This document shows positions 1 through 31,821 of a stretch of 64,000 bases of DNA, piece by piece. The number at the start of each line of letters is the position of its first letter. The first letter of the stretch is position 1. The stretch comes from Candidatus Adamsella avium. GTDB lineage: Bacteria; Cyanobacteriota; Vampirovibrionia; Gastranaerophilales; CAJFVJ01. Position numbers and translations under genes: made by a program. The notes beneath the pieces are model-generated. The model worked only from the letters and a program-made list of their open reading frames with translations. It searched no databases and was not told where the DNA came from. The stretch spans positions 739,998-803,997 of the forward strand of contig CAJFVJ010000003.1 of assembly GCA_904420445.1 (NCBI GenBank). Direction: 5' to 3'.

Positions 1-446
1 GCAAGATAATCGTTTACCGTAACAACATGAGCCCCTTTGCCTGTCAGAGCATTCAAATAAACAGGAAGCGTAGCAACAAGAGTTTTACCTTCACCTGTTC
101 TCATCTCAGCTATCTGTCCTTTGTTCAGGACCATGCCGCCTATTAACTGAACATCATAGTGACGCATGTTCAGAACTCTTTTTCCTGCCTCTCTCACTGT
201 CGCAAAAGCCTCGGGGAGAATCAAATCAAGAGCTTCATTCTGAAGAATCAGGTCTTGTTTTTTATCTTCAACTTTTCGTCTGTTATCGAGCTTATTTTTG
301 AACTCAACCGTTTTTGCACGGAGTTCATCATCAGATAGTTTCGAAAAATCTTCTTCAAGTATATTTATATGTTCAACTATCGGTAAAAGTGTTTTAACTT
401 TTCTTTCATTCGGGTCGCCCAATAGTTTTGCCAATAACTTCATCAT
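1..446 (-). CDS. secA: SecA preprotein translocase ATPase (N-terminal part, cut by window edge)
   Basis: Motor ATPase that drives unfolded preproteins through SecYEG. Only the first 148 codons are inside the window; the rest lies before position 1. The protein starts [16 protein letters not shown] and includes the SecA DEAD-motor signature [11 protein letters not shown] (Walker A) followed by [23 protein letters not shown]. Two ATGs are adjacent (446 and 443); an AGAGGAA ribosome site lies about 10 bases upstream. It is separated from uvrC by a terminator and a possible small RNA, so it probably has its own promoter. Identity is very safe because the N-terminal SecA sequence is highly conserved. 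Confidence 0.96.
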
Positions 447-792: not shown

Positions 793-2616
793 TTACAAAT
801 TTTGGAGCGCATCAAAAATTTTCTCACCTGTTTTCAGCCCGAACATATCCTGCAGTTCTTCTTTGTTTGCAGCGAGAATGCCCTCTATCGTTTCAAAACG
901 TTCGAACAATTGTTTCTTCTTCTTTTCTGACACTCCTGGGATTTCATCCAACGAAGACTCTACCGCAGTTTTTGAACGCAGCTTTCTATGATAAGTTATT
1001 GCAAACCTGTGCGCTTCATCCCTGACTTTCTGGAACAAGAACAGCGCTTTTGAGTTAAGAGGAAACAAAATAGAATTCTTCTGATGGGGTAAAAAGACCT
1101 CCTCTTCCCGTTTTGCAAGAGATACGATATCTGATGAAATTCCTCCCAGTTCATCAAGCACTCCGACAGCTGATGATAACTGTCCCTTGCCGCCATCTAT
1201 AATAATCAAATCAGGCATGGGCAGATTTTCTTTTTTAAGACGGGAGTAACGGCGTCTTATTACTTCCCGCATGGATTGGAAGTCATCCACCTGCGTATCT
1301 TTCAGAGTACGGATTTTAAATCTTTTATACATGGATTTTTTAGGTCTTCCGTTCTCAAAATAAACCATTGACGCAACGGTGTTCGTTCCCTGAATATGAG
1401 AAATATCAAAACATTCTATGGTATGGGGGAAATTCTTGAGTTTCAGTTTTTCCTGAATATAAGACCCGACCTCATTCCACTCATCAGCCATCTGAGTTGA
1501 AAGAGTAAGTTTCAGGCGGTCAAAACTGATAGAGGCGTTCTTGTTTGCAAGGTCTATCATTTCTTTTTTCCTGCCGATTTTTGGAACCGTGACATCAACC
1601 TTTTTGCCTTTTTTTATTTTCAGCCACTGAGATATCAGGTCTTTTTCTTCCTCCGAAATTTCGAGAGGCAAAAAGATTTCTGATGCTATATCATCAGTTG
1701 AAATATAATAATCCTTCAAAAATCTCTCCAAATACTCTTCTGTCGTATTCTCAGGAGAAATTTCATAGTCAAAATCCTGTTTATCAATCAGTCTGCCATG
1801 CCTGATTTTCATGACAACAAAACACAGGCGGTTGCTCTCACGATAAAACCCGATAATATCCTGAAATATGTTTGTATTTTCCGAAACAACTTTCTGCCGT
1901 TCCATAACTTTTTTCACGTCAAAATAGCTGTCACGGTATCTGGCTGCCTTCTCATACTGCTGCTTCTCGGCATAAACTTCCATCTGATGCTTCAGCTGTT
2001 CGAGGAGTTCCCCTTGATTTCCGGATAAAAACATTTCAACCTGTTTTACAAGAGCCTTATACTCCTCAGATGAAACAAGTTTCTGGCATGGTCCGAGGCA
2101 TTTTCCTATTTGATAATAGATACATGGACGGTCTTTAAATCTAGGGGTTTTGCACTGTTTGAGAGGAAAAATTTTTTTTATCAGCTCGAGAGTAGAGTAC
2201 ATCGCTCTTGAATTTGTATACGGGCCGTAGTATCTTCCCTTTGCCATATTTTTGTTGGCACGTCTTGTGACAATTATGCGGGGATAATCTTCATCGGTAA
2301 TCAAAAACCAGGGAAACTTCTTATCATCCTTCAAAAGAACATTGTATTTCGGCTTATGTTTTTTTATCATGTGAGATTCAAGTATCAGCGCTTCAACCTC
2401 GGTATCAGTCACAATATATTTGAAACTCACAATCTGAGGCACCATAACTCTCAGCTTCGGCGAGTCATGATTTTTGTTGAAATAACTCCTGACACGGTTT
2501 TTGAGAACCTTTGCCTTGCCGACATAGATAATCTCACCGTTTTTATCGAGCATAAAATATACCCCCGGCATATCGGGGAGTAAATTCAGCTGTTCTTTTA
2601 AAGGAATGTTTGTCAT
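793..2616 (-). CDS. uvrC: Excinuclease ABC subunit C
   Basis: UvrC makes the two incisions on either side of a lesion in nucleotide excision repair, working with UvrA and UvrB. The 607 residues have the usual order. A GIY-YIG nuclease comes first (PGVYFM...[18 protein letters not shown], residues about 18-46). A cysteine-rich stretch near 155-175 precedes the UVR helix pair at about 200-235. The RNase H-like second nuclease follows ([10 protein letters not shown] and [11 protein letters not shown]), and a C-terminal helix-hairpin-helix ends the protein ([24 protein letters not shown]). The ATG overlaps the panD stop in an ATGA, so the two are translationally coupled. Full length, nothing missing. 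Confidence 0.97.
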
Positions 2617-4831: not shown

Positions 4832-5368
4832 CTAATATTCTATCCCTTGTCTTGCCATAACTCCCGTATCAAAGTAGTGCTTAATGGGTTTCATCTCGGT
4901 AACAAGATGAGCCATTGCAATCAATTCGGGGTTAGCTCTTCTCCCTGTCAGTACAATCTCCAATTCCTGAGGCTTGTTCATCAGAGCCTCTTTAATTTCT
5001 GAAATTTTTATCATCCCTAAATCAGCGCAGATATTAATCTCATCTAGAATAATAAGCTGATATTTTCTGCTCTGGATTGATTCTTTTGCAAACTGCCATC
5101 CTCTTCTTGCTTCTTTGAAATCTTCAATACAAACATTGTGAGAATAAACAACTCTGTCCATACCGAATTGAGCGACTTCAAAGTTTGGCAAAAATTTTGA
5201 AGCGGACATCATTTCGCCGTAGTAGTTAGCACCGTTATCCCCTTTTGTGAACTGAATCATAAGCACTTTCCACCCATGACCCAAAGCTCTCAGTGCCAAT
5301 CCCAAAGATGCTGTAGTTTTCCCTTTTCCGTCCCCTGTGTAAATCTGAATGTAGCCGTTTTGTAACAT
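4832..5368 (-). CDS. cobO: Cob(I)alamin adenosyltransferase, CobO/BtuR type
   Basis: Transfers the adenosyl group of ATP to reduced corrinoids, making adenosylcobalamin or its precursors in the cytoplasm. The P-loop TGDGKGKTT is at residues 11-19, as in CobO/CobA. LIILDEIN is the Walker B-like strand, and the RRANPELIAMAHLVTEM segment near the C-terminus is also conserved. Length 178 is normal. It stands alone, with its own terminator and no other cobalamin synthesis gene beside it, so it may serve salvage of imported corrinoids. A GGAGGA ribosome site lies upstream of the ATG. Confidence 0.93.
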   Translation of the reverse strand: MLQNGYIQIYTGDGKGKTTASLGLALRALGHGWKVLMIQFTKGDNGANYYGEMMSASKFLPNFEVAQFGMDRVVYSHNVCIEDFKEARRGWQFAKESIQSRKYQLIILDEINICADLGMIKISEIKEALMNKPQELEIVLTGRRANPELIAMAHLVTEMKPIKHYFDTGVMARQGIEY

Positions 5369-29871: not shown

Positions 29872-29972
29872 AAACTCCTCCAATCATCTTTTTATTTTAA
29901 ACTAATACATCAAAAGATAGATATTTATTAACTTTTATCTCTTAATATGCTTTAATAAAAATAAAGCTATGT

Positions 29973-30917
29973 GTGAACATGTCTATGGGTAAGCAAGTCT
30001 CACAGCAAAAGACAAATAATATCTCCTTGACCGGATACAAAATCCTTCACATATTAGGGTTGTTGACAAAATCACCTCAAAGTGAAGCTGATTTGAATGA
30101 GTATTTCGCCAATAACAAACTCATCGGGAAAAAAGTTTCTGATGACAGCATAAGCTTGTATATAAATACTCTCAGAAAAATCGGATGCAAAATATCAAGA
30201 CCGTCAAAATCAAACAACTACAAATATGAATTGACTTATAATCCGTTTATATTATCTCTTGATGAAAAAGAAAAACAAACTCTATCAACAGCCACAAAGT
30301 ATCTTGCCAAAATAAACAACTGGAAATTCATATTTGACGTTGACAATGTCTTTCTCGAACTGCAAAATCTCATAAATATCAACAAAGATGAAATCCTCAG
30401 TTCCATATCAAATATAACAAGCATAGACAAACAAATTATTCTGAAACTCAACCTCCACTGCAAAAATAAAAACGTAATAACAATACACCACAGAACCCTT
30501 TCTTCTGATGAAATTAGAAAAATAACAATTCTTGCAGATGAGATGTTTCTCGAGTCAGGGAAATTGTATATATGGGGCTATAATTTTAAGCAACAGGAGA
30601 TGCAGTATTTCAGAGTAGATAAAATTCTTGATATAAAAAAAGTAGGCATAAGCAATAACGAACCAATAATCAAAAAACCAATAGCTGTCTACAAACTCAA
30701 AGATGAACTTGTAAAAACATTCAAAATCGATGAAAACCAGATCATTATCTCAAAAAAATCAAATGAATTGATAATCGAAGAACAAATTATCAACAGATTC
30801 AAATTTGTTCAAAAAATTCTATCATACGGCACAAATTGTACTTTGCTATCACCGCAGAATATCGTAGACGAAATAAAACTTACTCTCGAAACTCTGGAGC
30901 AGATATATGAAAAATGA
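29973..30917 (+). CDS. WYL-domain regulator, first of a pair
   Basis: Predicted DNA-binding regulator: an N-terminal winged-helix region (about 15-75, LTGYKILHILGLLTKSPQSEADLNEYF) and a central helical linker. The WYL-type domain (about 170-235) has LYIWGYNFKQQEMQYFRVDKILDIKKV. WYL domains bind ligands or single-stranded nucleic acid and often control DNA damage or defence genes. The start is uncertain: GTG at 29973 or ATG at 29979 or 29985, none with a clear ribosome site. The end overlaps the next WYL-like gene by 11 bases. Confidence 0.75.
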   Translation: MNMSMGKQVSQQKTNNISLTGYKILHILGLLTKSPQSEADLNEYFANNKLIGKKVSDDSISLYINTLRKIGCKISRPSKSNNYKYELTYNPFILSLDEKEKQTLSTATKYLAKINNWKFIFDVDNVFLELQNLININKDEILSSISNITSIDKQIILKLNLHCKNKNVITIHHRTLSSDEIRKITILADEMFLESGKLYIWGYNFKQQEMQYFRVDKILDIKKVGISNNEPIIKKPIAVYKLKDELVKTFKIDENQIIISKKSNELIIEEQIINRFKFVQKILSYGTNCTLLSPQNIVDEIKLTLETLEQIYEK

Positions 30918-31821
30918 AAACAGCAAAAATTTTATTCAGGCAGCCTATAGAATACTATTTCTTCTGAAACTCCTAACTAAAAAAGATATGACGCTCAAAG
31001 AAATAGAAGAAAAATTTTCTCAAAATGAAGATATTCCATGTGAAACAAGAAAAGAAACCCTGCTCAAATACCTAAAAACTTTAAACCTGGCAGGTTATAA
31101 AATAGAAAAAATCGGAAATAAATACGGAATCAAAGAATTTCCGACAAAACTGAATCTCTCCAATTCCTCCATAAATACACTCATAAATCTTCAAAAATTT
31201 ATACAGGGACTCTACAGACACAAACTCTCTGTAGACTACAGCAAATTTATCACTCACCTCTCGAAATACCTGTCAAAAGAAAAACTGAACAAAATATCAA
31301 ACCTCAAAAACGATAATCGTGAGATTTTCAAAGAATACCTCCACTACAAAGACATACTCACAACAATTGATGAATATCTGAACAAAGGAAGAAAACTCGA
31401 AATAACAACCCTCTCTCAAAAGAAAATACTTTTGGACTCACCTGAGTTAGATTACTATGACAAAGAAATATTTCTGAGCGGATACAACAAAAAGACAAAA
31501 GAACTCACCTCAATTCCTGTCGAAACCATTACCAAAATTAATCTCTCCTCTCAGGTATCAAGCAAAATAAACATCTATCCCTCTATAACTTTCAAACTCA
31601 AAGGAAAACTATCTCACAACTACAAACTTAAAACAAACGAAAAAATACTCTCCTATGACAAAGAAAAACAAGAATTAATAATTCTAAACACAAAAGAAGA
31701 CAAAAATCTTCTATTTAGAAGAATCATCAGATACGGACTCCTCTGCGAACTTCAAAGCCCAAAATATATCAAAGAAGAATTCAAAGACTTTATCTCTCAG
31801 ATGAGGAAGAATTATCAATGA
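30907..31821 (+). CDS. WYL-domain-like regulator, second of a pair
   Basis: A diverged paralogue of the preceding protein with the same layout. The N-terminal helix-turn-helix is about 10-70 (AAYRILFLLKLLTKKDMTLKEIEEKF), followed by a helical linker. A degenerate WYL-like region is about 165-215 (EIFLSGYNKKTKELTSIPVETITKI), where the WYL tryptophan is replaced. The C-terminal parts of both share FRRIIRYGLLCELQSP and KFVQKILSYGTNCTLLSP. GGAG precedes the ATG. It overlaps the upstream gene by 11 bases and kdsC, on the other strand, by 32. The pair recalls PafB-PafC. Confidence 0.65.
   Translation: MKNENSKNFIQAAYRILFLLKLLTKKDMTLKEIEEKFSQNEDIPCETRKETLLKYLKTLNLAGYKIEKIGNKYGIKEFPTKLNLSNSSINTLINLQKFIQGLYRHKLSVDYSKFITHLSKYLSKEKLNKISNLKNDNREIFKEYLHYKDILTTIDEYLNKGRKLEITTLSQKKILLDSPELDYYDKEIFLSGYNKKTKELTSIPVETITKINLSSQVSSKINIYPSITFKLKGKLSHNYKLKTNEKILSYDKEKQELIILNTKEDKNLLFRRIIRYGLLCELQSPKYIKEEFKDFISQMRKNYQ

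Follow-up and report, generated by a model that had tools for sequence, protein, structure and literature searches.

We lean to the view that two adjacent genes of Candidatus Adamsella avium, here called A and B, encode one obligate two-subunit activator of the WYL family, in which A would be the sensing subunit and B its partner, with AACCGAAAATATG as a candidate binding site in families f3 to f5 of the order Gastranaerophilales. Homology, tandem order and joint inheritance of the pair are shown below, and the heterodimer itself is inferred. The features concerned are collected in Table 1, where coordinates without a locus label refer to the window, by which we mean the whole 64-kb stretch of DNA that was analysed.

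Table 1. Positions of the genes, predicted domains and candidate regulatory features, in the window unless a locus is named
Feature	Position	Strand	Basis and remarks
Divergent intergenic stretch before A, short	29884..29972	+	possible -10 TATGCT at about 29946; no AACCGAAAATATG match
Gene A, HTH-WYL-WCX protein, proposed sensing subunit	29973..30917	+	ORF list, Pfam, AlphaFold model, Foldseek
A winged HTH, residues 16-92	30018..30248	+	AlphaFold model; conserved better than the rest of A (mean pairwise identity 34.4%)
A WYL domain, residues 151-226	30423..30650	+	Pfam; Tyr199, Arg214 and Lys217 at the places of PafB Y196, R211 and R214
A WCX domain, residues 236-312	30678..30908	+	model; Pfam WCX below cut-off only
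A/B overlap, 11 bases	30907..30917	+	ORF coordinates
Gene B, paralogous to A over the full length, WYL pocket degenerate; partner subunit as proposed here	30907..31821	+	BLASTP, profile-profile comparison, AlphaFold, Foldseek
B winged HTH, residues 9-79	30931..31143	+	AlphaFold model
B WYL domain, residues 147-217	31345..31557	+	AlphaFold model; pocket residues largely missing among relatives
B WCX domain, residues 226-303	31582..31815	+	model; conserved better than the rest of B (mean pairwise identity 38.3%)
Candidate small RNA	L213, about 1404-1470	-	element, hairpin
Candidate small RNA	L216, about 1404-1470	-	element, hairpin
Candidate small RNA	L223, about 1546-1612	+	element, hairpin
Candidate small RNA	L240, about 224-290	-	element, hairpin

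Gene structure and predicted fold

A sequence-only reading of this DNA had described two genes overlapping by 11 bases, and the ORF coordinates confirmed this arrangement. Counted from the GTG at 29973, the A ORF comprises 314 aa; because the Met encoded by the ATG at 29979 is invariant in an alignment of 14 A proteins, this ATG is the likelier start than the annotated GTG. The B ORF begins with ATG and comprises 304 aa. The two genes overlap in 48 of 57 pairs (28 of 36 relatives, 19 of 20 further loci, and the window), and translation of A and B is likely to be coupled through the overlap. Both genes look native, because their third-position GC (0.356 for A and 0.351 for B) lies inside the range of eight neighbouring genes (0.315-0.391). 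Elsewhere in this genome (L001:1174-2097; C3, about 847.9-849.1 kb), a 325-aa gene adjoins a further WYL-WCX regulator, which has 307 aa and is unrelated to the pair.

Pfam recognised the WYL domain of A barely above its cut-off (22 vs 21.8 bits) and found neither WYL nor WCX above cut-off in B, and an NCBIfam scan returned sub-cut-off matches only. The AlphaFold models of A (mean pLDDT 83.9, pTM 0.56) and B (mean pLDDT 87.8, pTM 0.72) both predicted an HTH-WYL-WCX layout with a WYL barrel, and both matched HTH-WYL-WCX structures over nearly their whole length in Foldseek searches. The combination of HTH, WYL and WCX in one protein, which characterises class A WYL regulators, is accordingly a predicted property of each protein, in the case of B by fold only.

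Paralogy of A and B and their relation to known WYL proteins

A and B proved to be homologous over their full length, both by BLASTP (27% identity, E 6e-12) and by profile-profile comparison (probability 100, E 3.9e-42, 302 columns). The earlier description of paired, strongly diverged WYL-type regulators is supported. When the A profile was searched against PDB sequences, BrxR (7qfz) was the best match (E 0.0068), followed by PafB (E 0.011) and PafC (E 2.6); the B profile found no WYL protein up to E 10, and a cyanobacterial homologue found none among PDB sequences. The match between the A and B profiles far exceeds those to PafB and PafC, so the two duplications look independent. On these scores we reject descent of the pair from PafB/PafC, and by the same measure the closest sequence homologues of A and B are not PafB and PafC, respectively.

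We also examined the relationship by phylogeny. In a 71-row tree, built from 30 of the 57 pairs and 11 of 16 cyanobacterial rows, with PafB and PafC not among the rows, the A proteins, the B proteins and the 11 cyanobacterial homologues each fell on one side of a branch, with UFBoot/SH-aLRT support of 99/96, 99/94 and 96/86, respectively. A quick tree of 131 rows, including the long row L001, gave support of 98 for A and 67 for B. The 71-row tree and the profile scores therefore indicate that A and B split once, before the order diversified, and apart from PafB/PafC.

At the level of predicted structure, Foldseek placed the PafC and PafB chains of 9fnd as the top two matches of the A model (E 2.5e-13 and 3.0e-12) and of the B model (E 1.0e-10 and 1.7e-9), with DriD next in both cases. 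Rigid-body fits of the full-length models to PafBC and DriD were poor (TM 0.23-0.43, rmsd about 9-21 A in Foldseek), because the domains are differently set. VIA-align ranked BrxR and CapW above PafBC for A (BrxR 7qfz on top, Z 13.2, 206 residues, rmsd 16.5) and placed PafBC first for B, with several others tied within 1 Z. The likeness to PafB-PafC that had been noticed from sequence is thus retained as a structural one, PafBC being the best solved match of both predicted models in Foldseek. We rate A-B as a variant of the asymmetric WYL pair that arose independently, a look-alike and not a descendant of PafBC.

Distribution and fixed pairing in Gastranaerophilales

The A profile matched 189 of 192 Gastranaerophilales genomes (G005, G018 and G136 gave no match), and the A protein alone matched 38 of 40 near genomes. 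When the profile search was extended to the phylum, 199 of 292 genomes matched, those outside the order weakly (best E 2.2e-23), and in the other family of the same class none of the five genomes covered matched even at E 0.01.

The order of the two genes was equally constant. Among the loci of 37 relatives, 36 carried A and then B in the same orientation, and in one the contig ends before A could start. All 20 further loci, picked among the more divergent matches, also carried A then B. With the window counted in, the tandem with A first and both genes on one strand was present wherever no contig end interrupts the locus (57 of 57), so that every uncut locus has two adjacent paralogues, as in PafB/PafC. 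The 57 pairs include L181 (G137), in which A is broken, and leave out L024, which holds only B on a contig ending 33 bases past the B frame. The A genes of L181 (G137), G040, G043, G077, G133 and G145 are listed with a single in-frame stop, which may be real decay or an assembly error; four of these six genomes belong to genus g25. The sequence-only reading had named two observations that would speak against such a pair, namely the absence of one gene from most relatives and the grouping of the two with unrelated WYL families, and neither of them occurred, although PafB/PafC, available only as a 67-residue segment, had no place in the tree.

Unequal retention of the WYL pocket

The available part of PMC11804915 reports that PafB requires R211 and R214, and also Y196, R181, R204 and R208, for binding of ssDNA. 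It further reports that the equivalent change is tolerated in PafC, the pocket of PafB being essential for ssDNA binding and that of PafC not. We located the PafB residues on the PafB chain of 7p5x and carried them to A and B by alignment. The WYL Tyr, at the place of PafB Y196, was present in 54 of 57 A proteins, 22 of 57 B proteins and 15 of 16 cyanobacterial single proteins. The place of R214 was basic (R or K) in 54/57, 11/57 and 15/16 of them, respectively, and that of R211 was Arg in 26/57, 1/57 and 14/16. The places of R204 and R208 were as a rule non-basic in A. In the window, the WYL motif is L-Y-I in A and I-F-L in B, and the two arginine positions hold R and K in A but P and T in B. 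Scored pair by pair (n=57), the pattern of Tyr plus basic residue was found in A only in 46 cases, in both proteins in 5, in neither in 5, and in B only in 1. As judged from these alignments, B has mostly lost the WYL Tyr and the arginine that PafB needs for ssDNA, whereas A mostly keeps both.

The full pocket is suggested to be ancestral and to have been lost in B, because the cyanobacterial single proteins keep it; the 16 proteins counted exclude the short L149 and L159, and L160 and L161. The WYL domain of B has a mean pairwise identity of 23.9%. In the WCX domain, Tyr was found in 34 of 57 A proteins and 57 of 57 B proteins, and Cys in 44 and 57 of 57. The two proteins do differ in the WYL motif, as the sequence-only reading had it, but its wording, that the second protein had lost the WYL tryptophan pattern, is rejected, since the W position of WYL holds no W in any of the 57 A or 57 B proteins.

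Gene neighbourhood

The neighbours of A-B were constant within families and different between families. Genes that we take to be spmA-spmB lay divergent from the pair in 6 of the 38 loci compared (f1, f3, f5 and f6). In f2, 17 of 18 loci have anmK as the divergent neighbour and 12 of 18 a downstream gene for DNA polymerase III alpha, and in f7 loci a lactamase-fold metallo-hydrolase was upstream in 4 of 4; one member of each of the anmK, polymerase and hydrolase clusters was checked with Pfam. No conserved defence gene was found among the recurring neighbours, and no pup-proteasome genes lay beside A-B in the loci compared. In one f7 genome (G016 C10; L037 / L097), recA lies about 1.5 kb from A-B on the opposite strand, an arrangement not seen in the other f7 genomes.

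Because the neighbours change between families, none of them is an obvious target. The lack of a constant neighbour, taken together with the near-universal match of the A profile in the order, fits a core regulator acting in trans, in support of the earlier suggestion that no target gene is adjacent and that the pair may be a global regulator.

Candidate promoter elements

Upstream of A, CCGAAAATATGTA with at most one mismatch was found in 6 of 15 loci (f1 and f3-f6), compared with 2 of 3000 shuffled sequences. Eight genomes of f3-f5 held six exact copies of the element, of which four stand before A; of the two at other places, one lies inside a gene. Genome-wide counts of AACCGAAAATATGTA, allowing up to 2 mismatches, were not above the reversed control. 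We then considered spacing to a -10-like box. Among the one-mismatch sites in the eight genomes, 10 of 15 had such a box at a distance of exactly 39 bp, counted from the first A of the element; 0 of 5 exact sites had one at +39, and the 84 two-mismatch sites showed no peak there (104 distinct sites in all). Two of the ten +39-spaced sites are the promoters of A itself (G012 and G006), and two precede orthologous proteins of about 415 aa that are 42% identical and have no Pfam match (L220:330-1583; L227:129-1373). Three lie before the candidate small RNA described below, and the genes behind the rest include those for an RTX-repeat protein and for a cyclic-nucleotide-binding protein. Four f4 genomes carry the exact element before A, but with the -10-like box at a greater distance (where clear, 48 to 58 bp from CCG).

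The AACCGAAAATATG element was missing before A in f1 (the window), f6 and some f4 loci, and no element with a spaced -10 box was detected anywhere in the 64-kb window at up to 3 mismatches. The element core was found in 0 of 32 recA loci, and by eye the upstream region of the genome's own recA shares nothing with that of A; we accordingly do not regard recA as an obvious target. The A proteins with the element in their own promoter have a common recognition helix, TICIYINTLR or close to it, which f2 proteins do not have. This ties the element to A by inference, and A-B would be expected to bind AACCGAAAATATG.

A single element across the whole order is ruled out, as f2 has another block before A, TTAATGAA-N6-TTAATGAA. 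Allowing at most one mismatch, this block was found in 8 of 8 genomes of genus g3, with 8 of its 9 matches lying before A, and its direct repeat sits in a long conserved block upstream of A (e.g., L042, about 5100-5270). There is also an ACATG element in f2, about 8-10 bp before the -10 box and mainly before A. Neither the f2 block nor the ACATG element helps to find a regulon.

A candidate small RNA in f4

In four f4 genomes (G011, G021, G023 and G031), we detected a candidate 61-nt small RNA that consists of TTCAATGCTATAA, a terminator hairpin of 7 pairs and, after it, a T run. The unit is preceded by the element, at three one-mismatch sites and one two-mismatch site, and the promoter element has the form AACCGAAAATAT(G/A)TT, with TTCAATGCTATAA invariant. 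The units are intergenic, with different neighbours where these were looked at, and an Rfam search of the small-RNA stretches returned no family.

LexA and the SOS background

The LexA DNA-binding domain (PF01726) was not detected in the genome carrying the window. As the PF01726 control missed Synechococcus elongatus, this model can miss cyanobacterial LexA, and we therefore also searched for the S24 peptidase, whose control matches in that species. Across the order, PF01726 matched 28 of 146 genomes at E 1e-3 and 14 of 146 over cut-off. Of six such loci inspected, L092-L095 encode LexA-like proteins directly upstream of umuC, L096 is short and without the LexA tail, and the match in L091 may be foreign to its genome, possibly through contamination. 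The L092-L095 loci, with a LexA-like S24 gene followed by a umuC-like polymerase gene, belong to two genera, and the A proteins of these genera are more diverged than any others sampled. The S24 peptidase matched in 22 of 39 genomes, with 13 of 17 f2 genomes giving no match, and the S24 protein of the genome carrying the window has, by eye, an XRE/CI-like HTH. RecA was found in 39 of 39 genomes.

Comparison with known systems

Like PafBC of Actinobacteria, A-B consist of two adjacent HTH-WYL-WCX paralogues, with 9fnd as the best Foldseek match of both, and one of the two WYL pockets keeps its ligand residues better than the other; a widespread core role in the lineage would be a further likeness. 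A-B differ in that the two proteins match each other far better than they match PafB or PafC, in having no pup-proteasome neighbours in the loci compared, and in the retention of only part of the PafB arginines in A. The candidate site of A-B also lies at the -35 place, whereas the PafBC motif is described as lying close to the -10. BrxR and CapW have the same domain layout, and among PDB sequences the A profile scores best against BrxR 7qfz; the known ones adjoin defence genes, as far as the available portions of their literature go, whereas no conserved defence gene appeared among the recurring neighbours of A-B. DriD of Caulobacter crescentus, the second-best fold match, is likewise an HTH-WYL-WCX activator and binds ssDNA, but it is a single-gene homodimer according to the available part of PMC11804915. 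The single-gene WYL proteins of photosynthetic cyanobacteria are full-length homologues (41.7-98.0 bits with the A profile, n=16) with the pocket kept in 15 of 16; they differ in forming a separate clade and in having no A-B tandem in the loci seen (in G267, two matches lie about 1.3 kb apart).

Proposed mechanism and alternatives

In the model that we favour, A and B would each contribute a winged HTH, a WYL domain and a WCX domain to one heterodimer. A would be the sensing subunit, as it keeps the WYL Tyr and the basic residue that PafB uses for ssDNA, and B, with its pocket mostly lost and its WCX domain best conserved, would, in the manner of PafC, be its partner and provide a second contact with DNA. 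Binding of a nucleic-acid ligand may then lead A-B to activate promoters in trans, including their own promoter in some families. In f3 to f5, the putative site would be AACCGAAAATATG, whose first base lies 39 bp upstream of the -10 box, that is, at the -35 place.

Whether the ligand signals DNA damage is a separate matter. It is doubtful, though it deserves serious weight, that A-B are an independently evolved PafBC-type damage activator replacing the RecA-LexA SOS response, with A binding ssDNA and A-B inducing repair genes. PafBC and DriD, the best solved matches, are both ssDNA-sensing activators; no LexA DNA-binding match was found in the genome carrying the window, and 14 of 146 genomes of the order exceeded the cut-off; the genome's own S24 protein has a CI/XRE-like HTH, and 13 of 17 f2 genomes gave no S24 match, with RecA found in all 39 genomes. 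Against these points, A keeps only part of the basic residues of PafB, an S24 protein does occur in 22 of 39 genomes, and PF01726 can miss cyanobacterial LexA. Nor did any repair gene turn up behind the candidate element, and the shared motif before DNA repair genes that the sequence-only reading had suggested looking for was absent, as far as the element core is concerned, from all 32 recA loci, which leaves its proposal of DNA-damage sensing without support so far. A LexA-replacing damage switch in which an ssDNA-sensing A and a pocketless B act at AACCGAAAATATG-N26-TATAAT, in one family via the 61-nt small RNA, is in our estimate distinctly improbable.

Two separate WYL homodimers, each with its own targets and adjacent by chance or by common expression, would be in keeping with the HTH being kept in both proteins and with the fact that, PafBC apart, the WYL regulators studied so far, DriD among them, are mostly homodimers (PMC11804915, in its available part). 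Adjacency and order are nevertheless kept in all 57 loci despite changed neighbours, and A and B show opposite patterns of residue conservation, so that we regard this arrangement as improbable. Far less credible still is a local regulator of the divergent spmA-spmB, or of whatever adjoins the pair: spmA-spmB do recur beside it in f1, f3, f5 and f6, but in only 6 of 38 loci, and other families have other neighbours (anmK in 17 of 18 f2 loci, the metallo-hydrolase in 4 of 4 f7 loci). For spmA-spmB, we reject local control because of this change of neighbours between families. Returning to the two-subunit activator, the earlier interpretation is supported in its description of a paired, diverged regulator likened to PafBC, and descent from PafB/PafC is not supported.

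Significance

To our knowledge, paired WYL regulators with divided labour are known only from actinobacterial PafBC. In the available portions of the literature on Gastranaerophilales, Melainabacteria and Vampirovibrionia, we did not find WYL regulators, LexA, SOS, transcription factors or small RNAs treated. An independent asymmetric WYL pair in another phylum would show that such heterodimers evolved more than once. The pair is near-universal in an order with few cultures, and the present analysis names residues to test. A-B are a candidate controller of stress genes where LexA is rare, for which we provide a concrete promoter element and a candidate small RNA.
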